A stretch of DNA of 64,000 nucleotides from Sulfurimonas xiamenensis (GCF_009258045.1 NZ_CP041166.1:1488001-1552000), one strand, 5' to 3'. Counted from the first letter of the stretch, positions 247 through 14,639 are shown. Notes: a model not told the origin generated them from the sequence alone. Program-made: numbers and translations.

Positions 247-1188
247 TTAAAAATCTAAGTCTCGATAAAGCACATCGGTTAAATAACATATATAAGCCAT
301 ATCTTTTATGAGCTTTGTTTCTTTATTATTTACATACATTTTATTTATTATATCATCTACATATACATTATGAGGAAGCCCTTTATTGTAATCAAAATAC
401 CTATTCATATCAATTTCAAGTGTTTTTTCCAAAGAAGGCTCTATTTTATCTATATATGTTCGGGCATAGTTATTTCTAAATATAACCATATCCTTATCTT
501 GCCTATAGATATCTTCATCTTCATAATCTACTCTTCCAATTATGTCTCTTGCCAAATACAAAAAAAATCTATACTCAAAGTTTTTAATAGCACGAAATTC
601 ACTAAGATTGTTTAACCTGTCACGTATATAGTCTTTGTTATACATCTTATCTAAAAAATATTCTCCAGACTCCAAGTTTGATTGTAAGCTATATGAGTTT
701 CGTAAGTATGCTAAGTATAGATTACTATTATCGTGGTAATCATATATTTTTTTAAAGCTATAATTATTCTCAATAAATTTTCCTTTCATATATTTCGTAT
801 ACTTGAAATCTCTATCACTATCTTGCTTATCAAGTCTATTTAGTATAAGTAATGTCGGTATTTTTCGTGATGTTACAGACTCTATATACTTTAAAGTTTT
901 GATGGTTTGTAGCATACATTCATATCCATATTCAAACGGAATTACAATCAGCTTAGCTTTTTCAATAAATTTTTTTGTATATTTTGTTTCAACATTAGTA
1001 CCTATATCAAATATGCCCCGTTTATTACTTGCTGTAATTTTAGCAACTTGAGGGAACTTATACTTATGCTCTTCATCAAGCATATAGCTATTTTTATCGA
1101 CATAAATTGGAAGATTCAACAATCTACCTAAATTATAAGTAAGCAACGTACAGCCCACACCATGCTTTTTATTCATAACCAAAATCAT
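247..1188 (-). CDS. ParA/MinD-like P-loop protein with degenerate Walker A
   Basis: The N-terminus MILVMNKKHGVGCT matches the position and shape of the ParA deviant Walker A motif (KGGxGKT). The signature lysine K8 is kept, but the P-loop lysine is cysteine at residue 13 and the second glycine-like position is histidine. A Walker A'-like segment follows (FDIGTN, around residue 60), then a beta strand LIVIPFEYG and a Walker B-like strand PTLLILNRLDK, as in ParA folds. The C-terminal ~150 residues are unrecognised and rich in Tyr, Asn and Asp. Upstream of the ATG, on the minus strand, is an AAGGTG ribosome-binding site. ParA proteins partition plasmids or position complexes. The missing lysine suggests weak or absent ATP hydrolysis, so a sensor or scaffold role is possible. 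It points left, away from the rep genes, which is not a usual parAB arrangement. Confidence 0.55.
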   Translation of the reverse strand: MILVMNKKHGVGCTLLTYNLGRLLNLPIYVDKNSYMLDEEHKYKFPQVAKITASNKRGIFDIGTNVETKYTKKFIEKAKLIVIPFEYGYECMLQTIKTLKYIESVTSRKIPTLLILNRLDKQDSDRDFKYTKYMKGKFIENNYSFKKIYDYHDNSNLYLAYLRNSYSLQSNLESGEYFLDKMYNKDYIRDRLNNLSEFRAIKNFEYRFFLYLARDIIGRVDYEDEDIYRQDKDMVIFRNNYARTYIDKIEPSLEKTLEIDMNRYFDYNKGLPHNVYVDDIINKMYVNNKETKLIKDMAYICYLTDVLYRDLDF

Positions 1189-1348
1189 ATTATTAAAAAC
1201 ACCTTAAAATTCATATAAACCCTTGCTAATGCTTTATTTTACTAAAAAATCTGTTAATTAAAACCCTTGTTCTTGGGATATTTATAACTTTGAAGTCAAA
1301 TTTTTTCTTCTGTCACAATACGGAAAATCTAAACAAAAGGAAAAAAAG

Positions 1349-1627
1349 ATGAGAAACACAAAACGAGTTGTAAAAGTCACGACAAGTGAAATAGAGATTA
1401 TCACTCGTCACTATACCTATGAAGTGATAGTGGAAGAAGCTATGGCAGATGAGTTCATGGAAAAGATGAGTGAGCTGTGCGGTCATAAAGAGATTTATGA
1501 AGTGCTGAACAATCATGTGTGCAAATATATAACTCGCAAAGACGGAAAACAATATCCAAGTGATGAGAATTTTTCATCAAGCATTGATAAAGTTGAACTC
1601 CTAAATCAACCTGCTTGGAGCCTTTAG
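1349..1627 (+). CDS. hypothetical protein (92 aa)
   Basis: This is a small soluble protein with no recognised family. It starts with a basic stretch (MRNTKRVVKV) followed by mixed alpha/beta sequence, an acidic helix (EEAMADEFMEKMSEL) and two cysteines. A clear ribosome-binding site (AAAAGGAAAAAAAG) precedes the ATG. It is the first rightward gene of the plasmid-like island and is followed by a 119-bp gap that holds a 12-bp perfect palindrome. Its closeness to replication and mobilisation genes suggests an accessory or regulatory role, but nothing in the sequence proves one. Confidence 0.6.
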   Translation: MRNTKRVVKVTTSEIEIITRHYTYEVIVEEAMADEFMEKMSELCGHKEIYEVLNNHVCKYITRKDGKQYPSDENFSSSIDKVELLNQPAWSL

Positions 1628-1678
1628 TATAAAGGTTCTTGCTGTTTTCTTTGAGCCTTCATTATGAGGGTTCAACGG

Positions 1679-1690
1679 AGATTGCAATCT
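1679..1690. promoter_or_regulatory. perfect 12-bp palindrome AGATTGCAATCT
   Basis: A perfect palindrome sits 57 bp upstream of the next start codon, in the 119-bp gap between two hypothetical genes. Its place and symmetry fit an operator for a dimeric repressor. No regulator can be assigned. Confidence 0.3.
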
Positions 1691-1746
1691 AAATCTGCGG
1701 TGCTTTACGAAGCCAAATATTATAAACACAACAAAGGATTATAAAT

Positions 1747-2220
1747 ATGCAAAACTTTAACAATTTAATGAGAACCAACGCAAAAATGCTCAGTGATGAT
1801 GAATATGCGACAAGCTATATACATGATAAAAACTTCCTTGAAGCACATAAAGAAGAAGTTGCTCAATGGTCTAAAAAACAACAAGAATGTTCAATCAAAA
1901 TTACTATGAAGGAATTTAAACTTTATCCTAAAAATAAAACTATTCTTCTCACACGAGCTATTGAAAAAGCAAAAGAATTATTAACACAAGAGGCTCATGG
2001 CGATTTTAATGATGAAGCCTATGTTGCTCTATTTAAGAAACATTTTTATCGTAGGTTAAAAGCATCTAAAATTCATATTAAACAGATGAAAAATTTACCA
2101 AAAGGTTTAGAGTCTTATTTAACAATCATCAATATTTTAAGGGATGTCAAAGATGAATACAATGAAATGCTTTTAGATGCAATGCAAACTATAGAGGAGA
2201 TGCTAAATGAAAACAAATAA
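1747..2220 (+). CDS. hypothetical helical protein (157 aa)
   Basis: The product is lysine- and glutamate-rich and predicted by eye to be largely helical, without membrane segments or a signal peptide. An AAAGGA ribosome-binding site lies before the ATG. The 3' end overlaps the next frame by 14 bp, so the two are probably cotranscribed and translationally coupled. I recognise no family. Its position upstream of the repA/repC-like genes suggests an island-specific role. Confidence 0.6.
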   Translation: MQNFNNLMRTNAKMLSDDEYATSYIHDKNFLEAHKEEVAQWSKKQQECSIKITMKEFKLYPKNKTILLTRAIEKAKELLTQEAHGDFNDEAYVALFKKHFYRRLKASKIHIKQMKNLPKGLESYLTIINILRDVKDEYNEMLLDAMQTIEEMLNENK

Positions 2221-2602
2221 ATTTGAAGATTTATATGATATTACAAAGAACTGGCAACTTGTTTCTCTATTAGAGCGTACTTATTTTACTGTGGCTCAAC
2301 ACCTATCAAGCAACTATAAAGGTGGGTATTGGGAGAGTGAAAAGCTTGAAAATGGATGGCTATTTTTGCTCGCTAATCATACCGAGTATAAGGTTGATAA
2401 CGAAATACTAAATAGTAAAACCTTTAGTTGTATCGTCAATAATATTGTCATGACGGAGACAATAAATGCACTTTATGAAATAGGCTTGGAAAATGACTCA
2501 TTCTTTTTCGAAATTTATGACTTGCTTGGAAATTTAAATAGCTCAATTCATAAGATACTTACAGAAGTAGAACTCACGCAATACTATAAACTGCTTGATT
2601 AA
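2207..2602 (+). CDS. hypothetical protein (131 aa)
   Basis: The start ATG lies inside the last codons of the preceding gene (14-bp overlap) with a GGAG-type ribosome-binding site (ATAGAGGAGATGCTAA). The sequence contains several aromatic residues (NWQLVSLLERTYFTV, GGYWESEKLENGWLF), reads as mixed alpha/beta and has no membrane helix. No family is recognised. It forms a two-gene unit with its upstream neighbour. Confidence 0.6.
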   Translation: MKTNKFEDLYDITKNWQLVSLLERTYFTVAQHLSSNYKGGYWESEKLENGWLFLLANHTEYKVDNEILNSKTFSCIVNNIVMTETINALYEIGLENDSFFFEIYDLLGNLNSSIHKILTEVELTQYYKLLD

Positions 2603-2614
2603 GGAAAAAATAAT

Positions 2615-2656
2615 ATGAAAATAATCAATTTAGACAGAGCTTCCAAATCTAACTAA
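2615..2656 (+). CDS. possible 13-residue leader peptide
   Basis: Directly after the preceding stop there is an AAGGA ribosome-binding site and an ATG opening a 13-codon frame (MKIINLDRASKSN). It could be a leader peptide for the gene at 2772, the remains of a truncated gene, or chance. The good ribosome-binding site is the only support. Confidence 0.2.
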   Translation: MKIINLDRASKSN

Positions 2657-2714
2657 GTGGAATGAATATTAACCCACTTTATAAACCCTATCTATTCAAG
2701 TGATTCGACTGCTT

Positions 2715-2729
2715 TGAACAATATGTTCA
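2715..2729. promoter_or_regulatory. inverted repeat TGAACA-ATA-TGTTCA
   Basis: Perfect 6-bp arms separated by 3 bp lie 43 bp before the start of the gene at 2772. The 6-3-6 layout fits the operator of a small dimeric HTH repressor controlling the rep module. A similar 6-3-6 palindrome of different sequence occurs at 12097 in the other mobile element. Confidence 0.35.
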
Positions 2730-2771
2730 GACTCACGATTATTTTAATCGCACTTAACATAAGGGGCAATT

Positions 2772-3113
2772 ATGCTACAAAAAAAAATTATTCCAACTAA
2801 AAGATTTTTAAAATGTGTGAAAAACACTATAAATGACTTAAAACAGCAGAACTATGAAGGTATCAAATATTTAAGAGAGATTATCAGAACAAAGAATGTA
2901 AATTTAATTTCAGCTACCACACTCTATGAGATTTTAGAGCTAAGAAAAGAGTATGCTTATTTAATCGTAAGTGAGCAAGGTAAGCATGACTTTAAAATAG
3001 TGGATAAAGAACATGATGACATGGAACTATTTTTAGATACACATTTTATAAACGGTTTAGAAATTCATGGAAACCGTATTACTGGTTATGTATCTTACAA
3101 AGAGGTGCTTTAA
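2772..3113 (+). CDS. hypothetical protein upstream of the repA-like gene (113 aa)
   Basis: The protein has a basic N-terminus (MLQKKIIPTKRFLKCVKN), a central segment with ATTLYEILELRKEY and an acidic C-terminal half. An AGGGG ribosome-binding site precedes the ATG. The stop lies one base before the repA-like ATG, so the genes form one operon. No family is recognised; its place suggests a regulatory or auxiliary replication role. It is too short and lacks the motifs to be the IncQ-type primase that one might expect here. Confidence 0.55.
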   Translation: MLQKKIIPTKRFLKCVKNTINDLKQQNYEGIKYLREIIRTKNVNLISATTLYEILELRKEYAYLIVSEQGKHDFKIVDKEHDDMELFLDTHFINGLEIHGNRITGYVSYKEVL

Positions 3114-3114
3114 A

Positions 3115-3915
3115 ATGTATTACTTCAACAACGAACTCAACAAATTCGACATACTAAAAATACCAGAAGAGCAACACCAAAGCATCAAGGGGCTTCCTGT
3201 CTCTGAAGTAGGTCTGCTGGTCGCCCCAGGTGCTACGGGCAAAAGTATGTTCGTGCTTAACCTAATTTTAGCCAGTTGCGGATTGACCTATAACCATCTT
3301 ATTGAAAAACCTGTAAAGACCCTCTATGTAAGTTTAGAGGACAGACTTGAAGATATTCAAAGACGCTTGTATGCCTATAAAAAAGCTCTCAATATTTCTG
3401 AAACTACACTACAAGAGACGGAGCTTGATTTTAAAATTATTGAGAACAAATCGACAGAGAGACTTATTGAAAAAGGTGTGAACCAAAAAGATAACAAGTT
3501 CTTCCAAGAGCTAAACTCCATTATTTCCGATGGTAAGTATGAACTGGTAATAATTGATACGCTCATCAAGTCATATACGGGCTTTGAAGAGAACAACAAC
3601 GCTGATATGGCGATGGTACTCTCGCACTTCAATAATATGGCTATAGACAATCAATGCTCGGTCTTACTACTGCATCATACCAACAAAGGTGCTATCGGAC
3701 AAAACGCTGATATAAACCAATCCATAAGCAGAGGTGCATCAAGTTTGGTCGATAACTCAAGGTTCGTACTCTCACTCTCAAAAAATGAGTACGATACAGG
3801 CATCATCTGCCAATCTATCAAGACCAACTTCTCTGCTCCAACGAGATGTGAGTACATGAGAGCTTATAAAGGTGCTCTAATATGTGAGGAATCTGAACAT
3901 GAACTTGTCGCCTAA
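3115..3915 (+). CDS. RepA-like AAA/RecA-fold replicative helicase (IncQ-type)
   Basis: The start is ATG 3115 (GAGGTG ribosome-binding site, one base after the upstream stop); an in-frame upstream ATG at 3067 lies inside the previous gene. The 266-residue product has a Walker A GATGKS around residue 44, a beta strand LYVSLEDRLEDIQRRL, a Walker B strand LVIIDTLIK and a sensor-like LLLHHTNKGA. This is the KaiC/RepA-like layout of hexameric plasmid helicases such as RSF1010 RepA, which is of similar length. Next to a RepC-like gene and iterons, a role in unwinding at the origin is likely. AAA_25-type proteins can have other roles, so the IncQ assignment rests on context as well. Confidence 0.7.
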   Translation: MYYFNNELNKFDILKIPEEQHQSIKGLPVSEVGLLVAPGATGKSMFVLNLILASCGLTYNHLIEKPVKTLYVSLEDRLEDIQRRLYAYKKALNISETTLQETELDFKIIENKSTERLIEKGVNQKDNKFFQELNSIISDGKYELVIIDTLIKSYTGFEENNNADMAMVLSHFNNMAIDNQCSVLLLHHTNKGAIGQNADINQSISRGASSLVDNSRFVLSLSKNEYDTGIICQSIKTNFSAPTRCEYMRAYKGALICEESEHELVA

Positions 3916-4828
3916 GAACACATATAAAGAAGCAAGAATGGCATCTATTGAGGTGCTGTTTCATTTTTTTAAAGCTGTGCCAAGCTCTTACTATGTCGAA
4001 ACCGAAGAAAAAAACTTGGATGGCACCGTGACCATAACTAAAAATGAGATACAGACCATCAGAAAAGAGCTTGATAGGTCTGTAACTGGGTTTGATTATA
4101 TTGAAATAACAGGGATGTATCTATCAGCATACGACCAAAAGATATTCAGAGCTATCATGCAAAGTGTCAATAAGCAAAAAGAGGAACTCTATGAGTCAAA
4201 TATGATTGAAGCCAAATCACTTAATGAAGAGTATCTTCCAGTTAGAAGAGAACTCTACTCCAACCAAGCTCAAATCGGTATCAATGAGTTCTATCAAATC
4301 ATAAATCCAAATACCAGACCAAGAGCTTCCAAAGAGATATACAGCAAGATAATCAACTCACTAAATAGACTTGCACATGTCACACTATCACTCTACACAA
4401 AAGATAAGAGAAACATCATCACAGCACCGTTGTTAATATTCTTAAGTGTTGACAACCGCTTAAATCTACAGCTTAATCCTGCGTTACTCTCTTATCAGTA
4501 TGAGAGTAAGAACCAACACATCATCAAACCTAAACAGAGTTACTATATCCTCAATAACTCTGAGTATTACGACCTTGGAAGTGATTTACAAAGATTACTC
4601 TACTCAAAGATACAGTATAGATTTGCCTCGATGCCTCAAAGTCACAAGGAGTGCAGATTTGAGTTTGATGAGATACTCTCTCAGCTCTTTGTAAAAACAG
4701 AGTCAAAAAAAAGCAAATACAACCAAAGTGCCAAGTTGAAAAGAACTATAGCCGAGCTAAATAATCACTCTTCATATACCCTCACAATCGAAGGTTCTAA
4801 AACTCTTTACATCGTAGTTAATAGATAA
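3899..4828 (+). CDS. RepC-like replication initiator
   Basis: ATG 3899 is chosen because GAGGA sits 8 bases upstream; a GTG at 3884 is in frame but poorly placed. The frame overlaps the repA-like gene by 17 bp. The 309-residue product is basic and soluble, with segments typical of winged-helix plasmid initiators (SLNRLAHVTLSLYTKDKRNIITAPLLIFL; NSEYYDLGSDLQRLLYSKIQYRF). In IncQ plasmids RepC binds the oriV iterons. Here the gene is followed within 100 bp by three 22-bp iterons, which supports that role. Sequence-level identification is moderate; position and partner carry much of the weight. Confidence 0.6.
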   Translation: MNLSPKNTYKEARMASIEVLFHFFKAVPSSYYVETEEKNLDGTVTITKNEIQTIRKELDRSVTGFDYIEITGMYLSAYDQKIFRAIMQSVNKQKEELYESNMIEAKSLNEEYLPVRRELYSNQAQIGINEFYQIINPNTRPRASKEIYSKIINSLNRLAHVTLSLYTKDKRNIITAPLLIFLSVDNRLNLQLNPALLSYQYESKNQHIIKPKQSYYILNNSEYYDLGSDLQRLLYSKIQYRFASMPQSHKECRFEFDEILSQLFVKTESKKSKYNQSAKLKRTIAELNNHSSYTLTIEGSKTLYIVVNR

Positions 4829-4854
4829 TTGAAGCCATCCAAGGCTTCAATTTT
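4829..4854 (+). terminator. intrinsic terminator after repC-like gene
   Basis: An 8-bp perfect stem (TTGAAGCC / GGCTTCAA) with a 6-base loop starts one base after the repC-like TAA and is followed by TTTT. It separates the rep operon from the origin-like region. Confidence 0.7.
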
Positions 4855-4887
4855 AAATGTATAAGTATATATATAAATAAATCAACA

Positions 4888-4901
4888 CCCGTAGTTACGG
4901 G
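4888..4901. other. small inverted repeat CCCGTA-GT-TACGGG next to iterons
   Basis: A perfect 6-bp stem with a 2-base centre lies 18 bp upstream of the first iteron. It could be part of the origin, for example a structured single-strand initiation site, or a transcription signal. Only its position supports this. Confidence 0.3.
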
Positions 4902-4919
4902 ATTACAAGCGTGTCATTT

Positions 4920-4985
4920 CCCTCTGTTAGGTTGGTCTTTACCCTCTATTAGGTGACTTGGTTCCCTCTATTAGGGTAATAGACC
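4920..4985 (+). repeat. three tandem 22-bp iterons (putative oriV)
   Basis: The 12-base core CCCTCTRTTAGG occurs at 4920, 4942 and 4964, exactly 22 bp apart, with more variable 10-base linkers. Iterons of 20-22 bp are characteristic of IncQ-family origins bound by RepC. The array lies directly downstream of the repA/repC-like pair in an AT-rich stretch. It is most simply read as the replication origin of an integrated or integrating plasmid-like element. Confidence 0.7.
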
Positions 4986-5044
4986 CCGTAATAAATTTAT
5001 AAATTTGTTCCTTGAAGATTATAATCAAACTAAAAAGGAGCACT

Positions 5045-5647
5045 ATGTTACAGACAATATTAAATCTACTGCCAGTTGTTTCAATACTTCTATCACTCTA
5101 TGTTCTACAGTTATTAAGAAAAGAAGAAGATGCCAACAGTTTAATAGAACATAATCAACAGTTGATAGAGAATTACATACTTAAAAATGCTGATGACATC
5201 AAAAAATTAGCAAAAGAGCTAAGTGAAGTAAAAAATAATATCTCAGATTGGAAGCTCAAAGTTATCAGTGACATCAAAGATGTAGAAAATAAGGTCACGG
5301 ACCTATATAACAGATGGGATATTGTTGCAGATGACAGAATCAATTCCATTCCCCAAAACTCGAGAGAGTGGTATGATGCTAAACTTATTGTTGAACAACC
5401 TCCTGTTAAAGTTTGGAAACCAAAGAATCTATCACAAAGCAAGCATGGATTCATCAATGAAAATGCCAAGTACAACAATGTTGAACAAGATGATGATGAA
5501 ATCAATCAAGACTTCTCACAGCTTAGTGATGAAGATTTTGAGAATATCTTAGATGATGATAGTGATGACAAAGACTCATCAGGTTCTACTGACCACCTGC
5601 AACAACAAAAACCTAAACGAAGAAGACCACCACAAAAAACAGTGTAG
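5045..5647 (+). CDS. membrane-anchored coiled-coil protein with acidic tail
   Basis: ATG 5045 has a strong AAGGAG site; the frame is open further upstream but without a good start. The 200-residue product has one N-terminal transmembrane helix (ILNLLPVVSILLSLYVLQLL), a coiled-coil-like region (about residues 25-95), a Pro/Lys/Asn linker, an Asp/Glu-rich stretch (DDDEINQD, LDDDSDDKDSS) and a basic end (KPKRRRPPQK). No family is recognised. Its place between the origin and the relaxase suggests an accessory mobilisation or partition protein that tethers a DNA complex to the membrane, which is inference. Confidence 0.55.
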   Translation: MLQTILNLLPVVSILLSLYVLQLLRKEEDANSLIEHNQQLIENYILKNADDIKKLAKELSEVKNNISDWKLKVISDIKDVENKVTDLYNRWDIVADDRINSIPQNSREWYDAKLIVEQPPVKVWKPKNLSQSKHGFINENAKYNNVEQDDDEINQDFSQLSDEDFENILDDDSDDKDSSGSTDHLQQQKPKRRRPPQKTV

Positions 5648-5663
5648 TAATACATTGTAAAAA

Positions 5664-5718
5664 GGCTCTCTGCAAGAGCCAGTAGTTTATCAGAAATGAT
5701 AAACAGTAACTGGCTTTT
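5664..5718 (+). terminator. overlapping hairpins, likely terminator
   Basis: A 6-bp stem (GGCTCT / AGAGCC, 5664-5680) shares its last GCC with a larger imperfect stem (GCCAGT...ACTGGC, 5678-5714) that contains an inner perfect stem GTTTATC / GATAAAC. A TTTT run follows. The two hairpins cannot form fully at once, so it may act as an attenuator before the relaxase gene or as a plain terminator. Confidence 0.5.
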
Positions 5719-5802
5719 GTTTAACACTCAAATTTTTTTGAAAAAACAAACTCTGTCAAAAAGTTTTATACTGTAGTTATATACCAATACAGGATAAACT
5801 TT

Positions 5803-6774
5803 ATGACGTGCGTGATGACCATACAACCGATAACCTTTAACACTAAGACAATCTCAGGAAAGATTGTAAAAGGGCTGGATGCTGGAGGAGGCTATGGGAT
5901 AATGCGTCACAACAACAGAGAGGAATATCTTGATGAGTTTGAAGTAAAGACCAAACGAAATACTCATATAGATAAATCAAAAGAGCATCTCAATCACTAC
6001 TTCAAAAAAATGGATGCAAGTAAGATTGAAAAACTAAAAGCAATACCCCATCGAGCAAACCAGAGAGGTGCGTTTCAGATGGTGTTTAGTTTTCAAGACC
6101 TTGATGTTGAGGAAGCAAACCAGTTCTACGATAAAGAGTTCGCAAAAGATAAAGCAAAGCTCATTGTGGAGTTCTTAAAACAAGAGGGAATTATTGAGAG
6201 GTTTGAACTGCTTGACCTTATTTGTCATAATGATGAGGGTATGCAAGGCGGTGAGACACAGCACCCTCATATACACGTCACTTTCTCTGCATTCGATAAA
6301 ATTAACAAAGACTGGGGTTACAAGGATTTCTTCTCCCCAACAGTCGGGCAAAAGCCTATGGTTAAAAATGGAGAGATTCAATACAAAAAAGTAAAGAACG
6401 GCAAAGATAGAGGTAAGTACCTCTTAGATGAGCATGGTAATAAGATACCAAAAATGAAAGATGTTGAAGCTCCCATCTTTCAAAAGCTACAAGATAACTG
6501 GAATGACTTTCTAATCGCTAAAAATCAACCCTACCGCAATAAAAAAGAGTTCACGAGCCTAATACAGCTTCCAAGCTCTATATGGAGAAAATTAAGCCCT
6601 GAGAAAAAAGAAGAGGTCTATAAAATCAGAAAACTCCAAAACAAGATGGATAGAGCTTATTTTAGTGACAACATGAAACTCTATGAGAGTTTAAAAAAAG
6701 AGATAGTGGGTCTGCTCGCAGAAGTGATGATTGATATTGAGCGTATTCAAAAAAAGCTTCATATGAAATTATGA
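5803..6774 (+). CDS. MobV-type (Mob/Pre) relaxase
   Basis: The 323-residue protein carries the two motifs expected for MobV relaxases. One is an N-terminal block HNNREEYLDEF...NTHID...LNHYF. The other is a histidine cluster HNDEGMQGGETQHPHIHV, the counterpart of HxDE...PHxH, near residue 150, followed by YKDFFSP. MobV enzymes nick oriT and stay linked to the 5' end for conjugative mobilisation. It is shorter than many MobV proteins (about 400-500 residues) and appears to lack a long C-terminal region. AGGA sits 8 bases before the ATG. The stop codon lies within an inverted repeat shared with the convergent ardC-like gene. Confidence 0.75.
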   Translation: MTCVMTIQPITFNTKTISGKIVKGLDAGGGYGIMRHNNREEYLDEFEVKTKRNTHIDKSKEHLNHYFKKMDASKIEKLKAIPHRANQRGAFQMVFSFQDLDVEEANQFYDKEFAKDKAKLIVEFLKQEGIIERFELLDLICHNDEGMQGGETQHPHIHVTFSAFDKINKDWGYKDFFSPTVGQKPMVKNGEIQYKKVKNGKDRGKYLLDEHGNKIPKMKDVEAPIFQKLQDNWNDFLIAKNQPYRNKKEFTSLIQLPSSIWRKLSPEKKEEVYKIRKLQNKMDRAYFSDNMKLYESLKKEIVGLLAEVMIDIERIQKKLHMKL

Positions 6775-6780
6775 AGCTTT
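6753..6780. terminator. bidirectional terminator overlapping two stop codons
   Basis: A perfect 10-bp inverted repeat (AAAGCTTCAT / ATGAAGCTTT, 8-base loop) covers the last codons of both the relaxase gene and the convergent antirestriction gene, which overlap by 6 bp. T-rich tracts are present on both strands. It probably terminates both transcripts. Confidence 0.6.
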
Positions 6781-7728
6781 AGGTCTGGCAAATTTGTTCT
6801 TGCTCTTTGTCTGTTTTTTATCTTGGCTCTGTTCAATGTTATTGACAGATAATTTTTCAAGATAAGTTGTTGCCTTACTTGCTTGAGATGAAGCAGAGAA
6901 GAGTATGTAAGGATTCTCTTTAATATTTTTAACCCATGAGTCAAGATACTCACTGTGTTGGGTGGTCTGCATTGATATACCTTTCTCCGCACATAAAAAA
7001 GCAGAACTCATCTCAGCGATTAGTTCTTCAACACCATAAGCTTTTTCCTTGTATTTTTGCAAGAATTTATCTCTCTCAAGGCGGGTCTCATGGTTCGTCC
7101 AATGGCTCAACTCGTGGAAAAAAGTGCTGTAGTAGTTCTCACTATCCTCAAAATCTCCAATATGAGGCATATAGATACAATCTCCCTGTTTGCTGTAAGC
7201 TGGTTCTCCTCTTAAAACAATCGGATTGATGGATTTTAAGAACTCTTCAATCTCTTGAACTTTTTCGTTATCGGACTTCGGCTCTTCATGCTGAAAGTTG
7301 ATACCCTCAACTTGTTGAGTGTTGTAGACCTTATAGCTTCTAAGTATTTTATATGACTCCTCTTTCTCTTCAACTTCGCCTGTTTCTTGATTGACCTCTT
7401 CGATAATTTTTTTCATGTTCTTTAAAAAGAAGATGTCCTTGGCATTTTCAAGCTCCTCTTCTTTGATGGTACCGCCAAGTTTTTCGACTTGTTTAGCTGT
7501 AATCCATTTGTTAGAATTATATTGATTTTCGCTCATTAGCGATATGAGATTTATACCTGAATAGTTACCGCCTGTTGTAGCACTCTGTGGCAGTCCATTT
7601 TTTAGGTTCCATGATTTTTTCCAAGGTTCTACACCTTGCTCTAAATCTGATATGAACTTTTCGACAAGCTCGTTGTATCTATCCCTTGCTGGATTTGTGT
7701 TATTGGTTTGGTTAAGGTTGTTCTCCAT
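6769..7728 (-). CDS. ArdC-like antirestriction protein
   Basis: The N-terminal ~130 residues match the ArdC single-strand DNA-binding domain: RDRYNELVEKFISDLEQGVEPWKKSW, TGGNYSGINLI and WITAKQVEKLGG in the usual order. The C-terminal half is a zincin with FHELSHWTNH (HExxH) and a later glutamate helix VEELIAEMSSAFLC that would supply the third ligand. ArdC proteins bind incoming single strands and protect plasmids from host restriction. The 319-residue length is normal. AAAGGAA precedes the ATG. It is transcribed toward the relaxase gene. Identification is good. Confidence 0.85.
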   Translation of the reverse strand: MENNLNQTNNTNPARDRYNELVEKFISDLEQGVEPWKKSWNLKNGLPQSATTGGNYSGINLISLMSENQYNSNKWITAKQVEKLGGTIKEEELENAKDIFFLKNMKKIIEEVNQETGEVEEKEESYKILRSYKVYNTQQVEGINFQHEEPKSDNEKVQEIEEFLKSINPIVLRGEPAYSKQGDCIYMPHIGDFEDSENYYSTFFHELSHWTNHETRLERDKFLQKYKEKAYGVEELIAEMSSAFLCAEKGISMQTTQHSEYLDSWVKNIKENPYILFSASSQASKATTYLEKLSVNNIEQSQDKKQTKSKNKFARPKAS

Positions 7729-7908: not shown

Positions 7909-8283
7909 GGGGCTGACTTGGTTTCGACAGGAGCAAGTAGGCTACGGTTGCATGTCGGACTGAGCATTTCCGTTACACGGCTCACAATTGCTTAAACGCA
8001 AACAATACAAATTATCGCCCAGCTTTAGCAGTAGCTTAAGTTTTACCCCCTCTTAGAGGACGGGCTGCTTCACCTATGGACTCTGGATAGATAGGATTCG
8101 AAGTATAACCCTTATGCAGATATATACTGAGTTTGTCTCGGCTTGGTACGAATTTTGAGGCTCGTTGTGTGTAGCTTTGCAAGTTGTGTGAAGCACAATT
8201 AAACACAAACAACTTCTCTAAGCATGTAGACGCCGTGGTTCATTTGTTTTTGGACAAGGGTTCAATTCCCTTCAGCTCCACCA
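7909..8283 (+). ncRNA. ssrA: tmRNA
   Basis: The 5' end GGGGCTGACTTGGTTTCGACAGG and the 3' end with a T-arm and CAGCTCCACCA form the tRNA-Ala-like domain; GGGGCTG pairs with CAGCTCC. The tag frame at 7998-8039 encodes ANNTNYRPALAVA followed by TAA, typical in style for Campylobacterota. Pseudoknot-forming sequence fills the rest. tmRNA rescues stalled ribosomes and tags the nascent chain for proteolysis. The 3' end is intact despite serving as an integration site: two further copies of its end occur downstream at 9869 and 14629. Confidence 0.97.
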
Positions 8284-8287
8284 TTTA
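8273..8287 (+). other. att core in the 3' end of ssrA
   Basis: CAGCTCCACCATTTA covers the tmRNA acceptor end and four bases beyond. It is repeated exactly at 9869-9883 and, for its first 11 bases, at 14629-14639. It is the left attachment site of the tandem insertions. Confidence 0.8.
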
Positions 8288-8304: not shown

Positions 8305-9597
8305 TTACTTATACATATTTTTAATAATTTCTTTGTTCTCATCTTCATCATCATGGGCGTATCTGAGCGTCATTTTTATATCACTGTGGTTCAATAAATT
8401 TTTCAGTTTAAAAATTGATGATTTTTCTTGTTTTAAAAAATTATAAGCAAATGAGTGTCTAATAGAATGAATGACTATTCTATTTTTTCGTCTTTTTGCT
8501 CTTACTTCTAAATCTTCTTCACTAACAGCCTCATCACTTCTTAAACCTTTTTTTGAATAAAGTAACTGTTTATAACTTTTCACTCTACCCTTACTATCTA
8601 ATTCCTTTTCATTATCTCTATCTGTATAATTGAAGAGGTCATCTAAAATTCTTTGCAATTTTTTCCGTAATGATGCATATGTTGATTTGATGATTTTTTC
8701 ATGTGTTTTACAAGTTTCAAACCTTTTTTCAAGTGCATTTCTTGTAATGTCATCAAAGTATGCAGTGTACTCTTTTGTGTCCTCTACTTTCTTTTTAAAA
8801 TTATGCAATTTGATTGTATGTTTTTCCAAATCTACGTCAAACTTGGTAGCTTTCATGATTGAACCAGCTCTACTTCCTGTTCTTGTTGATAACAATACAA
8901 AAAGATGTATATCTTCATTCTCCAATACTCTTTTATCATTTTCAAGCTCTTGAATTTGCTCTTTAGTAAGATATTTTGTTCTCGTATTATCAGGATGAGT
9001 TATTTCAATTTCACTTACAAGATTAACGCCAGTATAATAATGATGCTTGATGGCATAGTTGTAATATTTTTTCATCATCAAAATAATATTACCAGCCGTT
9101 TTTATTGCTAATTTTTCTTTGAGATTTGCATAAAAAAGTTTTACATCAGACACTTTTATATTTTTAGCATCCTGTGTGCCGAAGACATCTTTAATGTATA
9201 TTTCATAAGTTCTTTTTTCTCTGTTGATTGTTTTTTTGTCTTGATTGTTATTAAAATAATATTGGGCTAAATCATTAATGGTTTGAACTGAAAACTTTTT
9301 TTCTTGTTGAGGAATAGATATAATAGGTTGCTTTTGTCTTGTTCTTCTTGTACGCTTAGTTTTTGACTTGATAGACTCAATAAATTTTTTCTTATTCTCT
9401 TGAATTTGCAAAGCTTTTTTTATCGTTAAATCATCCCCTATCTCTTCTTGTTTTCTTTTCCCATCCTCATTTAAAAATCGAAGCGTATATCTCTTTACAG
9501 TTTTTTCTCTTGGTCCATATTTACCATCATAGATTATTTTGACATTTTTATAGTACAAATTTTCTGTATCGGGAACTTTGATAAGCTTGTTTGACAT
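8305..9597 (-). CDS. tyrosine recombinase (phage-type integrase)
   Basis: The 430-residue protein has a Lys/Arg-rich N-terminal arm, a SAM-like core-binding segment (DLAQYYFNNNQDKKTINREKR) and a C-terminal catalytic domain. Catalytic residues are visible: Arg in TGSRAGSI near residue 240, H377 and R380 in HSIRH, H404 in LLNHSD and nucleophile Y413 in LRYAH. It ends 21 bp from the tmRNA CCA, the usual place for an integrase that uses a tRNA or tmRNA end. It appears intact, so it could still act on the flanking att copies. It differs in type from the second integrase at 10067. Confidence 0.92.
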   Translation of the reverse strand: MSNKLIKVPDTENLYYKNVKIIYDGKYGPREKTVKRYTLRFLNEDGKRKQEEIGDDLTIKKALQIQENKKKFIESIKSKTKRTRRTRQKQPIISIPQQEKKFSVQTINDLAQYYFNNNQDKKTINREKRTYEIYIKDVFGTQDAKNIKVSDVKLFYANLKEKLAIKTAGNIILMMKKYYNYAIKHHYYTGVNLVSEIEITHPDNTRTKYLTKEQIQELENDKRVLENEDIHLFVLLSTRTGSRAGSIMKATKFDVDLEKHTIKLHNFKKKVEDTKEYTAYFDDITRNALEKRFETCKTHEKIIKSTYASLRKKLQRILDDLFNYTDRDNEKELDSKGRVKSYKQLLYSKKGLRSDEAVSEEDLEVRAKRRKNRIVIHSIRHSFAYNFLKQEKSSIFKLKNLLNHSDIKMTLRYAHDDEDENKEIIKNMYK

Positions 9598-9632: not shown

Positions 9633-9868
9633 AAAGAGAGAACACAACTCAAATACTTAATTCAACTCATATAAATCTCTATAATTTTACTTAAAACTCA
9701 CTTAAGTAAATATAATAACTCACTTAAATAGGTAAGTACAGGTAAATAAACATCTGAGCAGTATGTTTCCTTATATAGTCGATATATACCTATATTAAGG
9801 GATTATATACTATTTAAAATGACACAAATAGTAATAAATTTATTTTTAGACAAAAGTTCGATCCTCCA

Positions 9869-9883
9869 CAGCTCCACCATTTA
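9869..9883 (+). other. second att copy (junction of the two elements)
   Basis: This is an exact repeat of the 15-base core at the ssrA end (8273-8287). The ~26 bases upstream also align with the tmRNA T-arm region, with mismatches. It ends the first insertion and starts the second. Confidence 0.75.
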
Positions 9884-9984
9884 ACTATCTAATACAATCC
9901 AAACAAGCCTTTAAAACTCCCTAAACAACGAACTTCTTAAGCAACTGTTAATCTAATATTGTCTAAACTAATCTTATTGAATGT

Positions 9985-10051
9985 ACCGCCAAAAGGTACA
10001 TTTTACAGTACATTTTAATTTTTAGTAAAAAAGTACCTCTTAAAATGTACC
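9985..10051. repeat. left arm-type sites of the second integrase (GGTACATTTTA family)
   Basis: Direct copies of GTACATTTTA occur at 9996 and 10008, and an inverted copy TAAAATGTACC at 10041-10051. The block 9985-10018 matches the right-end block 14534-14567 at about 31 of 34 positions. Closely spaced repeats near both att sites fit integrase arm-binding sites. Confidence 0.6.
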
Positions 10052-10066
10052 ATTAAAGGATTTGAT

Positions 10067-11311
10067 TTGTCTAAACTAGTAGCAGTTGATTTACCAAAGA
10101 TAAAACCAAAAGATAAGCCCTACACCCTGAATGACGGGAACGGCTTATCATTACTCATCAAAACAGACGGTACAAAATTATGGGAATTTAGATATACAAG
10201 TCCTACGATTTTAAAAAGGCGAAAATCATCATTAGGTAAATATCCTGATGTACCTTTGGCGGATGCAAGAGACAAAGCAAAAGAATATAAAAAGCTTATC
10301 GCTCAAGGCATAGACCCGATAGAATACAAAAGAGAGACAAAACAAAAAATACTAGCAGAACAAAAAGGCGTATTTGACAAAGTGATAGATGAGTGGTTTG
10401 TCAAGCAAAAAAAAGAACTTGCACATAGTACCTACATCCGAAAGGTAGGACAGTTTGAAAATGATGTAAAGCCATTTTTTAAAGGCAGATTAATATCAAC
10501 TATCAAACATCCCGAGATTGTTAAGCTGCTTGAGATGAAAGCTATAAAAGCCCCTGAAAGTGCAAGTAGGTTAATGCAGTATCTTAATAATTTATGGCAG
10601 TTTGCTACTATGAAAGGCTATTGCGAATTTAACATCATTGCAAATATTCATAAAAAAACTATCCTCACACCACCCAAAAAGAAAAACTATCCAAAGATAA
10701 CAGACCCTCAAACGCTCAAGGAACTTGCAAGAGCGATTTATGCCTATAAAGGCGATTACAGCACAAAGAACGCTTTAAAATTAGTTTTACACTTACCTTT
10801 AAGAGCTGATAACTTAGTTAATCTCAAATGGGAATACATAGACCTTGATAAAAGACTTCTTACTATTCCACGCTCACTAATGAAAGCAAAAGATGAGAAT
10901 ATGCCAGACTTTAGAATGCCGCTCACGCCTCAAGTTATAGAGATACTACAAGAGCAGAAACTTTTTACAAGTGGTACATTTATATTTAAAACAAGCGGTT
11001 ACGCTGATGTACCAATAAATCCCGAAACCCCGAACAGAGCATTACAAAGAATGGGTTTTAATGATGAAGCAAAAGGCAGAAAAACAAGATTACACGGTTT
11101 TAGAGGTACATTTAGAAGTTTGGCAGATACTTATCAATCAGAGCATAATGTTAGCTATGAAGCAAAAGAGAGAGCCTTAGACCATTTACCAAAAAATGCA
11201 GTAGAGAGAGCATATACACATAGAGCAGATTATATAAAAGAACTTGAAATGCTGATGCAATGGTGGAGTGATTATCTTGATAATTTGATTAGTGATGAGG
11301 TGGTAAGATGA
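10067..11311 (+). CDS. tyrosine recombinase, P4-type integrase
   Basis: Translation probably starts at TTG 10067, six bases after AAAGGA; no ATG fits the conserved N-terminus. The 414-residue protein opens with the DUF4102-like domain of P4-type integrases (LNDGNGLSLLIKTDGTKLWEFRY, KSSLGKYPDVPLADARDKAKEYKKL). Catalytic residues are seen in PLRADNLVNLKW, LHGFRGTFRS, ALDHLPKN and the nucleophile Y383 in ERAYTHR. It lies next to the left att copy and should integrate and excise the 4.8-kb element. Its 3' end overlaps the next gene by 4 bp (ATGA). Confidence 0.93.
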   Translation: MSKLVAVDLPKIKPKDKPYTLNDGNGLSLLIKTDGTKLWEFRYTSPTILKRRKSSLGKYPDVPLADARDKAKEYKKLIAQGIDPIEYKRETKQKILAEQKGVFDKVIDEWFVKQKKELAHSTYIRKVGQFENDVKPFFKGRLISTIKHPEIVKLLEMKAIKAPESASRLMQYLNNLWQFATMKGYCEFNIIANIHKKTILTPPKKKNYPKITDPQTLKELARAIYAYKGDYSTKNALKLVLHLPLRADNLVNLKWEYIDLDKRLLTIPRSLMKAKDENMPDFRMPLTPQVIEILQEQKLFTSGTFIFKTSGYADVPINPETPNRALQRMGFNDEAKGRKTRLHGFRGTFRSLADTYQSEHNVSYEAKERALDHLPKNAVERAYTHRADYIKELEMLMQWWSDYLDNLISDEVVR

Positions 11312-12042
11312 GTGATAAATGCTCACAAATAGAGGCATCTAAAATATTAGGCATATCAAGACAAAGCATAAACAATCTTATAAGAAGAGGCAAAATACAT
11401 AGATACGATAATAAAGCGGTAAGCTTAGATGAAATAAAAGATTATATAAACAAAACTCCGGAATTAAAAAAAGAAAAAAAAGCTATTATAAGATTAGAAT
11501 TAACAAAACAAAAGCACTATGAAGCGTGGAACTTAAAAAATATTACAACTGATGATTTTACAGATTTTATAATAGATAAATTTTTTATATTTTTTAGTAC
11601 TTACAGCGATGATGAAATAATAGAAAAATTATCTACTATCAGTTGGTTAATTTACTATTATCAGCATTCATATGAGAGCATACCCGCCAAAAAAATAAAG
11701 CAAAAAAATAATTATAAAATCGGAGCAGATACAAAAACTATTAAAGATGCAACTGATGAAATTTTAAAATTGCTAGATGATTGTTTTAATGAAAAATCTA
11801 AACAAGCTAAATTAATAACAGCTATTAAAGATTTGCAAAAAAATCCCTATGATTATATTTATCTGCCGAAAGATTTGCAAGATATTAGAATAACAAAAAT
11901 CAACCTAGCTGAAAATTTAAAATTGACAATACTTCCAAAAAATTCAAGATTAAAAAGAAAAAATGAAAAAAATCCTCACTTCAACAAAATAGACAAAATT
12001 TTAGAAGCACTGCCTTTTGAAAATATAAATTTATCAAAGTAA
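11308..12042 (+). CDS. protein with N-terminal helix-turn-helix (244 aa)
   Basis: The start overlaps the integrase stop by 4 bp, so coupling is likely. The N-terminal ~50 residues (QIEASKILGISRQSINNLIRRGKIHRY...AVSLDEIKDYI) form a MerR/excisionase-like HTH as in the HTH_17 family. The remaining ~190 residues are Lys/Ile/Asp-rich and unrecognised. The protein could regulate integration or excision, or serve as an accessory replication protein. Codon use is very AT-rich. Confidence 0.65.
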   Translation: MSDKCSQIEASKILGISRQSINNLIRRGKIHRYDNKAVSLDEIKDYINKTPELKKEKKAIIRLELTKQKHYEAWNLKNITTDDFTDFIIDKFFIFFSTYSDDEIIEKLSTISWLIYYYQHSYESIPAKKIKQKNNYKIGADTKTIKDATDEILKLLDDCFNEKSKQAKLITAIKDLQKNPYDYIYLPKDLQDIRITKINLAENLKLTILPKNSRLKRKNEKNPHFNKIDKILEALPFENINLSK

Positions 12043-12096
12043 ACAAAACACAAATTTTAGGCTTAAACATTTGAAATCATTACTAGAATGAGTGTG

Positions 12097-12198
12097 TACA
12101 AGCCGCTTGTAGAATTATGTAATCTAATGACGATTAGAGAGTATCAGTAAAATTTAATTCAATACTAAACTGATATTAAAAAATCTTAAAGCTTTAAG
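12097..12198. promoter_or_regulatory. operator-like palindromes upstream of alpA-like gene
   Basis: Three symmetric sites occur within 102 bp: TACAAG-CCG-CTTGTA (12097-12111), the spaced pair TATCAGT / ACTGATA (12142-12148 and 12169-12175) and the perfect 14-bp palindrome CTTAAAGCTTTAAG (12185-12198). The last is 35 bp before the alpA-like ATG. They fit operators for the element's own regulators. Confidence 0.45.
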
Positions 12199-12233
12199 TC
12201 TCATCATAGTTGAACTATGGGAAAGATTTACAA

Positions 12234-12410
12234 ATGGAAGTAAAATATCTAAGAGCCAAAGCAATGGCTTCATACTTAAATATCGGACTTAGTACCGTTT
12301 GGCTATACGCTAAACAAGGAAAGCTCACGCCAAAGAAGTTAAGCGACCGTGTGACACTTTTTAGTGTAGAAGAGGCAGATAAGCTTATCAATGGTTTTGA
12401 GGTAGCTTAA
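12234..12410 (+). CDS. AlpA-like transcriptional regulator / excisionase
   Basis: ATG 12234 gives a 58-residue protein that is one HTH domain: MEVKYLRAKAMASYLNIGLSTVWLY..KQGKLTPKKLSDRVTLFSVEEADKLIN, the AlpA family pattern (x-R-x-K-x-x-A-x-x-L-x-x-S-x-x-T-x-W). A TTG at 12210 is an alternative start. AlpA proteins control integrase genes or act as excisionases in P4-like islands. Operator-like palindromes lie directly upstream. Confidence 0.8.
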   Translation: MEVKYLRAKAMASYLNIGLSTVWLYAKQGKLTPKKLSDRVTLFSVEEADKLINGFEVA

Positions 12411-12411
12411 T

Positions 12412-12708
12412 ATGAAGTTATCCAAAAGAATAGAGAGCATTGTATCTCTCACGGTAGAAGATTTTTATAATAGCGGCAAAAGTACCAATGAAAGTAAAAA
12501 GAGCCTTATTAGTTGGGTATCTGATGCACTATTACAAGATGAGGGCATAGAGGATTTATACACTTATCAAATATCTATCTTGATACTTGATAAACTAAAG
12601 AGCCTTGACATTGTAGACATCGGTTTTATAATGGAGCTTATGGCTTCAAATTTCACACTGATGGATAATGAATTTTCTTTTAGTGATTTTGATGAGGTGG
12701 TATTATGA
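12412..12708 (+). CDS. hypothetical protein (98 aa)
   Basis: The ATG lies one base after the alpA-like stop and the end overlaps the next gene by 4 bp (ATGA), so it belongs to a tight operon. The product is acidic and helical, with ISWVSDALLQDEGIEDLYTYQISILILDKL. No family is recognised; it is probably an element-specific factor. Confidence 0.6.
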   Translation: MKLSKRIESIVSLTVEDFYNSGKSTNESKKSLISWVSDALLQDEGIEDLYTYQISILILDKLKSLDIVDIGFIMELMASNFTLMDNEFSFSDFDEVVL

Positions 12709-13016
12709 TTAAGAAAATATCTTTAAATAATACAGAAAAAAAGATTTTATCGTTGGCATTAAAAAATGATGATAGGGTGCAAACTCACTACTCAAAAGAG
12801 TTGTTTAATTGTCATTATCTGCCAGATATAATACAGCATATTAGAAGAAAATTTGAGTCTTTTTTTGATGTTGCAGACGGTACCGACATACTATCAACTG
12901 AAACTCACACCGTCTTGAAAATAGATGGAAGCACGGCACGAATAGGAATATACAGAATTAATTCTGCCTATAAGCAAAAAGTGGCGGAATTATTGAAAGT
13001 TATTAGTAAAGAATAA
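12705..13016 (+). CDS. hypothetical protein with possible winged-helix features (103 aa)
   Basis: The sequence LNNTEKKILSLALKNDDRVQTHYS...LPDIIQHIRRKFESFF, followed by a turn and a strand (TVLKIDGSTARIGIYRINSAYKQKVAELLK), has the look of a small winged-helix DNA-binding protein. Similar short proteins occur in phages and satellites. It follows the previous gene with a 4-bp overlap and ends at a terminator-like hairpin. The assignment is tentative. Confidence 0.5.
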   Translation: MIKKISLNNTEKKILSLALKNDDRVQTHYSKELFNCHYLPDIIQHIRRKFESFFDVADGTDILSTETHTVLKIDGSTARIGIYRINSAYKQKVAELLKVISKE

Positions 13017-13034
13017 AGAGGTAAAAACCTCTTT
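13015..13034 (+). terminator. hairpin AAAGAGGT / ACCTCTTT
   Basis: An 8-bp perfect stem with loop AAAA overlaps the stop codon of the preceding gene. The 3' arm ends in TTT, giving a moderate intrinsic terminator for the alpA operon. Confidence 0.5.
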
Positions 13035-13048
13035 AAGCTTGAAAAAAA

Positions 13049-13105
13049 CACCCCTTACAATAAAGTCTAATGTAGTCTACACATTAAGCTACTTTTTGAG
13101 GGGTG
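13049..13105 (+). other. structured intergenic segment before the Rep-like gene
   Basis: Outer arms CACCCCT / AGGGGTG enclose an inner imperfect stem around GTAGTCTAC with flanking TAATGT and ACATTA. The segment lies 105 bp before the Rep-like start. It may be a structured leader, a small RNA or part of an origin. Confidence 0.35.
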
Positions 13106-13209
13106 CAACCTCAACCGCCCACGATAGGCACGGGCTTAGAGATACATAACAAAAACCACTTTAAGAAATGAAGTTCTTAATAGGTATAAAAAAGAGAGAC
13201 TAAAACACT

Positions 13210-13893
13210 ATGAATATCTTACACGAATTAGAAGATTTTATCAACGAATTTAACCAAAATAATAATGAAGATTTTGCCATAGACACTATAAGAATAGAGT
13301 TCCAAAAACAGCATAAATTAGAGAGTTTAAAAGCCATAGGTAGATGGAATAAAATCAACGCCAGAGATAAGCGGATAATGGCGAAATTAAAAAAGCGGCT
13401 CACGGCTGATGAGATTACAACCGCTTACCAATTAGAGCGTGAGAACATCTACTATTACAACTCATCTACACCGCCAAAATACAATCAAGCTACTTTAGTA
13501 ATATTTGGTATAAAGCAATATCACAAAGAGCCGCCACCGTATGAACTCACAAACAGACTTTTAAATATTTTATCATTTGGTACTTCAAAAATAAATATGA
13601 ATATTGATATTTGCTCCGACACTAAACACCGCCCAAACATAGAAGCACTTAAAAGATTTTTTGATTTAAAACAGTACATTACAAAAGATGGATTGTTTAC
13701 AGATACTCATTACATTAACCGCCCAGATATACCAATGATAGAAAAAATAATCATCTATAATAAGCAAGTGAAAAACAATTTAGCTTTTATAGTTTGGCGG
13801 ATAGAAGCGAAAGTTATCATTCCAAACTTTAGAGTTTTAGCTTTACCACTTCACGAACTAAAAGAAGTTACAGACATTGCAAGGGGGAACTAA
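13210..13893 (+). CDS. putative replication initiator of the satellite-like element
   Basis: The 227-residue protein is basic and soluble. Its C-terminal half (INMNIDICSDTKH..., then MIEKIIIYNKQVKNN and VWRIEAKVIIP) resembles the layout of Rep_trans-type rolling-circle initiators: R-x-D-x-x-x-D, then a YDK-like segment and an RxE strand. Matching is by pattern only; a catalytic tyrosine is not assigned. Its place in a small integrase/AlpA element, followed by short direct repeats, fits a replication protein. A ribosome-binding site GAGAGAC precedes the ATG. Alternatives are a phage-derived protein of other function. Confidence 0.4.
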   Translation: MNILHELEDFINEFNQNNNEDFAIDTIRIEFQKQHKLESLKAIGRWNKINARDKRIMAKLKKRLTADEITTAYQLERENIYYYNSSTPPKYNQATLVIFGIKQYHKEPPPYELTNRLLNILSFGTSKINMNIDICSDTKHRPNIEALKRFFDLKQYITKDGLFTDTHYINRPDIPMIEKIIIYNKQVKNNLAFIVWRIEAKVIIPNFRVLALPLHELKEVTDIARGN

Positions 13894-13997
13894 TGAGTAA
13901 AGATGATGTAATCAAAAAGATAAAAGAGATACTTGCAAAAGATAAACGCTTCAATAATGCAGATATAAAAGTAATCTTCAAGCAAAAAAAGTCATAG
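13893..13997 (+). CDS. 34-residue basic protein after the Rep-like gene
   Basis: ATG 13893 shares its A with the preceding TAA and has a strong AAGGGGG ribosome-binding site. The product (MSKDDVIKKIKEILAKDKRF...KQKKS) is lysine-rich and helical. The excellent ribosome-binding site and stop-start overlap support a real gene; the function is unknown. Confidence 0.5.
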   Translation: MSKDDVIKKIKEILAKDKRFNNADIKVIFKQKKS

Positions 13998-14077
13998 GTA
14001 CTGTAAGAGCTTTTTTTATATCACGGGTGCTGCAAGCCTCAAAAACTCACTAATTATCATTTTTTTTAAACTATGTT

Positions 14078-14104
14078 AACTATTATAACTATTATAACTA
14101 TTAT
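14078..14104 (+). repeat. three tandem 9-bp repeats AACTATTAT
   Basis: Three exact copies lie head to tail, in an AT-rich stretch 80 bp after the Rep-like operon. They may be iteron-like or an unwinding element. Confidence 0.6.
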
Positions 14105-14533
14105 AATTAAATCCTATAATAGGACACTTCAAGCCATTAACCTATTAACCAAAGTATATTAACTAATCAAATATAATTAACCAAAGGCTTATATCTGCCC
14201 TACAAGGCACGAACATATCTCAAGCGATAGATTGTAAGGGTAAAATGGTTTTATGCGGTGCTGATGATTAAAGATGATGCCCCCAAGTTTGGGGTGATGT
14301 ATTACCCCGACATTCATGTCGATGCAGTAGTAAAGAAATTATTAAGTTAATACCCGCCATTTTAGCGACTACGAGAAACCCGTATAAGCAAAAGTTAAAT
14401 ATTTGAAATAGGAACGAATGCCAAAAAAGGAAACCGTTCTTTAATCTTCAATAGCAGAATGAGATTTTAAATATTTGTTTGGTACAATTAAAACTACAAA
14501 ATGCGATTATAGAAGCCAAGAAAATTTTAAGCG

Positions 14534-14567
14534 ACCGCAAAAAGGTACATTTTAAGGTACATTTTAA
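14534..14567. repeat. right arm-type sites of the second integrase
   Basis: Two perfect tandem 12-bp units GGTACATTTTAA (14544 and 14556), preceded by ACCGCAAAAA, match the left block 9985-10018 with about three differences over 34 bp. They lie 62 bp from the right att core. Confidence 0.65.
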
Positions 14568-14628
14568 AATCTATGAGACCACAAAAACCCTATTTATAGG
14601 CTTTAAATAGACCTCACACGGTAGGCCA

Positions 14629-14639
14629 CAGCTCCACCA
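14629..14639 (+). other. third att copy (right end of the second element)
   Basis: CAGCTCCACCA matches the last 11 bases of tmRNA; the match with the second copy extends three bases further left (CCACAGCTCCACCA). It marks the right boundary. Confidence 0.7.

Follow-up and report, generated by a model that had tools for sequence, protein, structure and literature searches.

A compact element at the ssrA gene of Sulfurimonas, with a predicted Rep_trans initiator and relatives across Campylobacterota, as a probable minimal phage satellite

Gene content and boundaries of the ssrA element

The 64,000-nucleotide stretch analyzed here (the window; G000:C1:1488001-1552000) belongs to the complete, 1.92 Mb genome of Sulfurimonas xiamenensis, and carries a mobile element integrated at the 3′ end of ssrA, the tmRNA gene (Table 1). 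The whole element spans 4.77 kb (9866-14639) and is flanked by 14-bp copies of the ssrA 3′ end, a repeat found twice where no copies are expected by chance. An initial annotation had placed a satellite-like element at 10067-13997; its genes are retained here, while the att repeats set the true bounds wider. Just inside the ends lie two copies of a further repeat, which are probably integrase arm sites.

Table 1. Features of the ssrA element, in window coordinates
Feature	Position	Strand	Basis or remark
Left att repeat CCACAGCTCCACCA (ssrA 3′ end sequence)	9866..9879	+	Exact 14-bp copy at 14626-14639
Arm-site-like repeat, GGTACATTTTAA-type / GGTACATTTTA-type, copy 1	9985..10018	+	91% identical to copy 2
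Tyrosine integrase, 414 aa, TTG start	10067..11311	+	Arm-DNA-bind_3, Phage_int_M, Phage_integrase
p244, variable-slot gene, 244 aa, N-terminal HTH_17	11308..12042	+	4-nt overlap with int (ATGA)
AlpA-like regulator/excisionase, 61 aa	12225..12410	+	HTH_17 and PHROG_66 matches
p98, variable slot	12412..12708	+	No family match
p103, small protein, variable slot upstream of rep	12705..13016	+	No family match
Conserved noncoding stretch, candidate double-strand origin	13040..13209	+	ACCCCTTA motif and three hairpins
p227, predicted Rep_trans-type rolling-circle initiator	13210..13893	+	Fold matches, conserved residues, profile match
p34, 34-aa small protein directly after rep	13893..13997	+	tblastn homologs
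Arm-site-like repeat, copy 2	14534..14567	+	Near right end of element
Right att repeat CCACAGCTCCACCA	14626..14639	+	L013 ends in the same repeat; at ssrA in L014 the repeat is longer

Its close relatives were found in Sulfurimonas assemblies. Contig L013 carries an element 89.6% identical to that of the window with the same terminal repeats, and L014, from another Sulfurimonas MAG, holds a mosaic relative directly at ssrA with 28-bp ends and 85-93% identity in blocks. In the relative G442, prs follows ssrA directly, with no insert between them.

The genes lie at the positions first assigned to them, Pfam and PHROG matches bear out the integration gene and the AlpA-type control, and nothing resembling a capsid, conjugation or lysis gene is present in the element, as had also been stated. 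The integrase is 91-92% identical in L013/L014, and the slot of p244 is taken by unrelated genes in other elements. The AlpA-like protein matches HTH_17 (E 5e-4, below the curated cut-off) and PHROG_66, "excisionase and transcriptional regulator" (E 1e-4); homologs with 65-87% identity occupy the same position in L013, L015, L019, and L020. Homologs of p98 are confined to L013 and L052, and those of p103 lie at the same position in L013, L016, and L051. Among the proteins recommended at the outset for HMM and structure search, p244 matched HTH_17, no Pfam or PHROG profile matched p98, p103 or p227, and structure search of p227 pointed to Rep_trans. No Rfam family matched the element, and no convincing defence gene was found by PADLOC among variable-slot genes.

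The genome has two ssrA genes, at 7909-8283 of the window and at G000:C1:1470613-1470986 (L005). The left gene has the tag seen in the Sulfurimonas MAG L014; its 3′ end is broken and lacks CCA, and ARAGORN does not call it. The right gene has the tag ANNTNYRPALAVA and is intact, and a 25-kb island ends with it. This island has apparently put the tmRNA gene of the host out of action and brought a replacement. Left of ssrA (L003, G000:C1:1476000-1488200; window 247-7728), the island contains genes that by eye resemble those of BREX (PglZ, BrxL, and a methylase), as well as an AAA ATPase of RepA type, a relaxase-like protein and an antirestriction protein of ArdC type. A second tyrosine integrase sits beside ssrA (window 8305-9597, minus strand), and in a repeat (8242-8287 / 9838-9883) the ssrA end recurs at 9838 as an 80% copy. 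These are probably the integrase and right att of the island itself, so that the island and the 4.77-kb element would stand in tandem.

A predicted Rep_trans initiator and a candidate origin

Searches of p227 against Pfam, PHROG, PADLOC, and PDB sequences returned no useful match, and only the fold search was informative. For a model of medium confidence (pLDDT 64), built from a nine-sequence alignment, the significant Foldseek matches in the PDB were solely 4cij (RepSTK1; E 1.3e-5) and 4cwe/4cwc (RepDE), with prob 1.00. The Rep_trans active site comprises D46, D142, D146, Y178, Y191 (the nucleophile), K193, R212, and E214 (PMC4797284), for which p227 offers the counterparts D25, D133, D137, Y168, Y183, K185, R197, and E199. 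Across 27 homologs, down to 24% identity, all of these are invariant except D25, which is nearly so and is paired by position and motif only. Profile alignment with hhalign against six pT181-type Reps brought D133 to E199 into register when the diverse p227 alignment A3 was used (E 0.0012, at a probability of only 20%), and the shallow alignment A2 gave no match. Like its divergent homologs, which have no Pfam match, p227 does not reach the PF02486 cut-off, which makes it a remote branch of Rep_trans and not a Pfam-level member. With predicted fold, residues and profile alignment in agreement, p227 is very probably a remote Rep_trans (pT181-type) initiator.

An HUH-type Rep was also considered for p227, and was rejected because the fold matches are to Rep_trans and the Rep_trans active-site residues are present. 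The early suggestion of a rolling-circle initiator at 13210 is thus upheld, with the type now specified. The initial annotation had named two findings that would together speak against its satellite reading, a protein at 13210 unrelated to replication and an element present nowhere else; neither was made.

The 150-230 nt before p227 are conserved among the closer relatives (alignment of nine elements), and display in order AAAAAAACACCCCTTACAATAAA, a GTARTCTAA-like motif, a GCCC..GGGC hairpin and a TTAAGAA..TTCTTAA hairpin. RTCTAA occurs in 12 of 16 elements against 2.8 expected, and ACCCCTTA in 11 of the 16 against 0.16 expected, these 11 being related elements and so not independent cases. 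The window stretch folds better as DNA than its shuffles (z -2.7). By analogy with Rep_trans plasmids, this stretch is the leading candidate for where nicking occurs; it could instead be regulatory. On the other side of rep, a p34 homolog was found by tblastn directly 3′ of the gene in all eight homologous loci of one scan.

Relatives across Campylobacterota

Elements bearing p227 form a previously unlabeled family spread across Campylobacterota. Homologs of p227 were found in 30 of 397 genomes of the phylum (about 8% of those sampled) and in 12 of 68 genera, and a separate scan located p227 homologs at eight loci, some in genomes shared with this survey. In nearly all cases the integrase gene is followed by a variable gene, then AlpA, between one and three small variable genes, noncoding DNA and p227, with p34 often coming last. 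The gene after int differs in almost every element, and in 12 of 20 it overlaps int, by 1-11 nt. Eighteen elements, measuring 4.3-11.5 kb, are delimited at the 3′ ends of tRNA/tmRNA genes by att repeats of 14-32 bp; 15 distinct ones fall within 4.3-8.4 kb, and three more, at tRNA-Ala, reach up to 11.5 kb. Their targets are the tmRNA gene and seven kinds of tRNA gene (tRNA-Leu, SeC, Ser, Met, Val, Ala, and Phe), a diversity that implies repeated movement of the family. Comparison of the window element with L014 gives 93% identity for Int and the left end, 88% for the noncoding stretch, p227 and p34, and 85% for the right end, with unrelated centers. As the two share their ends and not their centers, the structure is that of a modular cassette.

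The window copy holds genes for replication, integration and regulation only, as would befit an integrated rolling-circle plasmid or a decaying remnant without a transfer helper. Such an origin is highly improbable, given that no ORF is disrupted, that the two att sites and the noncoding stretch are likewise intact, with conservation of all of these from lineage to lineage, that close copies exist in other assemblies (L013 and L014), and that the many different tRNA targets imply repeated movement of the family.

Searches with tblastn and patterns found no p227 relatives in IMG/VR, whose selection by viral hallmark genes would miss such elements, nor among INPHARED phages or PLSDB plasmids. 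At two further loci, L107 and L108, the neighbor of a TerS-like gene of cluster 7 encodes a Rep_trans-like protein, recognized by its motif, of greater divergence; these suggest that the p227 profile captures only part of the family.

In two relatives (L110 and L111, from genomes G083 and G200), the element itself contains a TerS-like HTH gene and a TerL gene, and no capsid genes. The TerL has ATPase and nuclease domains (PF03237, PF17289; PHROG_38, E 3e-117) and is 64% identical to the TerL of the tailed phages Aaphi23 and S1249. The terminase-bearing elements also carry a KilAC antirepressor and ParDE-type, toxin-antitoxin-like genes. That of G200 is closed by a tRNA-Ala att repeat at both sides, and the right repeat is seen in G083; L111 is att-bounded at 11.5 kb, with int and rep broken. 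A putative TerS-like HTH gene adjoins rep in other relatives as well. The strong matches of the cluster-7 gene adjoin p227 or Rep_trans-like genes; its HMM matches are at chance level only and none of its strong matches lies in a viral contig, hence its TerS role is putative. Weighing against a satellite, the window copy lacks a terminase and any other gene for packaging. The PF03237 terminase family was not found in its own genome either, so that no resident helper of that type is present.

Rep_trans proteins double as relaxases of IMEs and ICEs in Firmicutes (PMC5704250), and Rep_trans/MobT relaxases are common with Int/Xis on small, tRNA-integrated streptococcal IMEs, where MobT is able to replicate the excised element too (PMC5704250, PMC6499999). 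By this precedent, p227 could act as a relaxase in the manner of MobT, nicking an oriT that precedes the p227 gene, with transfer through the T4SS of a conjugative helper; VirB4 (PF03135) is present in 8 of 31 carrier genomes. This is nevertheless unlikely. An N-terminal HTH is reported to be typical of MobT relaxases (PMC6499999), whereas p227 is a 227-aa catalytic core in which none is recognized. PF02486 was found above cut-off in none of 101 Campylobacterota genomes, leaving no recognizable MobT ICE helper there. VirB4 is missing from the other 23 carrier genomes, that of the window included, although a T4SS helper may arrive from another host. Finally, an IME has no need of the TerL that relatives carry, and it is this subclade, in which TerS-like and TerL genes occur without capsid genes, that makes a phage satellite more likely than an element dependent on conjugation.

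Among named viral structures, p227 is best matched by an Inoviridae Rep, and the replication proteins of CTX-type filamentous phages belong to Rep_trans (PMC4797284). The helper could be a filamentous (ssDNA) phage, as it is for the satellite RS1 in the CTX phage family; Rep_trans would then yield circular ssDNA for extrusion by the inovirus. A satellite of this kind is very unlikely all the same: the TerS/TerL of relatives implies dsDNA packaging, the AlpA and int-overlap layout is that of tailed-phage satellites (PMC10803314), and no inovirus gene was recognized among the elements examined.

A proposed satellite cycle and comparison with known systems

A PICMI-like gene order, relatives with terminases, the scarcity of VirB4 and the lack of a MobT protein above the Pfam cut-off in 101 genomes of the phylum together favor a satellite over these alternatives, and the window element is on balance probably a minimal phage satellite. 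The phage-satellite profile first proposed is supported, the link to phages resting on the terminase genes of relatives and not on this copy. Of the earlier interpretation as a whole, the profile, the AlpA call and the guess at an initiator stand, and the Rep type becomes Rep_trans, not HUH. The wider proposition, for which the case is evenly balanced, is that minimal satellites across the phylum have dropped the primase for a pT181/Rep_trans initiator, keep swappable centers between conserved ends and include one branch with terminase and without capsid genes.

It is possible to sketch how the excision, origin, helper and packaging of such an element might fit together. A helper phage would induce the element, whereupon AlpA, perhaps with the product of the int-overlapping gene, would direct Int to yield an excised circle. 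Using Tyr183 and a D25/D133/E199 metal site, p227 would nick this circle at an origin within 13040-13209 and drive its rolling-circle replication. The product would be packaged by the machinery of the helper or, in the sister subclade, be loaded into helper heads by the TerS/TerL that the element encodes; the packaged element would re-integrate at ssrA in a new host.

Gram-negative PICIs and P4-like satellites have an integrase, AlpA control, a tRNA-type target and no full set of virion genes. All of these are common to the window element, which differs in having no Pri/Rep primase-helicase and no recognized capsid-remodeling genes, and in being smaller than usual.

The phage-inducible chromosomal minimalist islands (PICMIs) of Vibrionaceae consist of int, an int-overlapping variable gene, alpA, a single variable gene and a replication gene (prim); excision or replication depends on int, alpA, prim and the gene overlapping int (PMC10803314). 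Like the window element, they have this gene order in approximately 5-6 kb, flanking direct repeats and no capsid-remodeling genes (PMC10803314); int and alpA occur together here in a small element without capsid genes, and p244 (11308-12042) takes the position of iolg. However, the PICMI replication gene is a DUF3987/DUF5906 primase (prim), in whose place the window element has Rep_trans and no primase, and PICMIs integrate next to fis, whereas p227 elements in Campylobacterota use tmRNA/tRNA genes, ssrA in the window copy. The p227 elements further add a conserved noncoding stretch and p34 to rep and, in some relatives, TerS-like and TerL genes. Lacking both the primase and the fis site, the window element is not a PICMI. 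The PICMI detection model requires a primase (PMC10803314), and satellite detectors of this kind would miss p227 elements.

The MobT/Rep_trans IMEs of Firmicutes (PMC5704250, PMC6499999) are likewise small, with a tyrosine integrase, tRNA 3′-end targets and a Rep_trans-type nickase; the p227 elements differ in the missing N-terminal HTH, the presence of AlpA, the phage-type genes of relatives and in that no conjugation helper was identified. With the pT181-family initiators (RepC/RepD, RepSTK1; PMC4797284), p227 has predicted fold and catalytic residues in common, but it falls below detection by Pfam PF02486, has no separate C-terminal DNA-binding domain and sits on an integrative element in Campylobacterota.

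In the literature searched, with most subscription papers outside its scope, no phage satellite was described in Campylobacterota, a phylum of human pathogens and dominant vent bacteria, and no satellite with a Rep_trans initiator. If the satellite reading is true, Rep_trans replication is a strategy for which our searches returned no precedent among tailed-phage satellites. The family would represent a satellite reduced to a few recurring parts and suggests that rolling-circle Reps may replace satellite primases, while p227 with AlpA provides a marker for finding helper phages where few are known. Provided that it is packaged, the element is a variant of the phage-satellite kind in which Rep_trans stands in for the primase.
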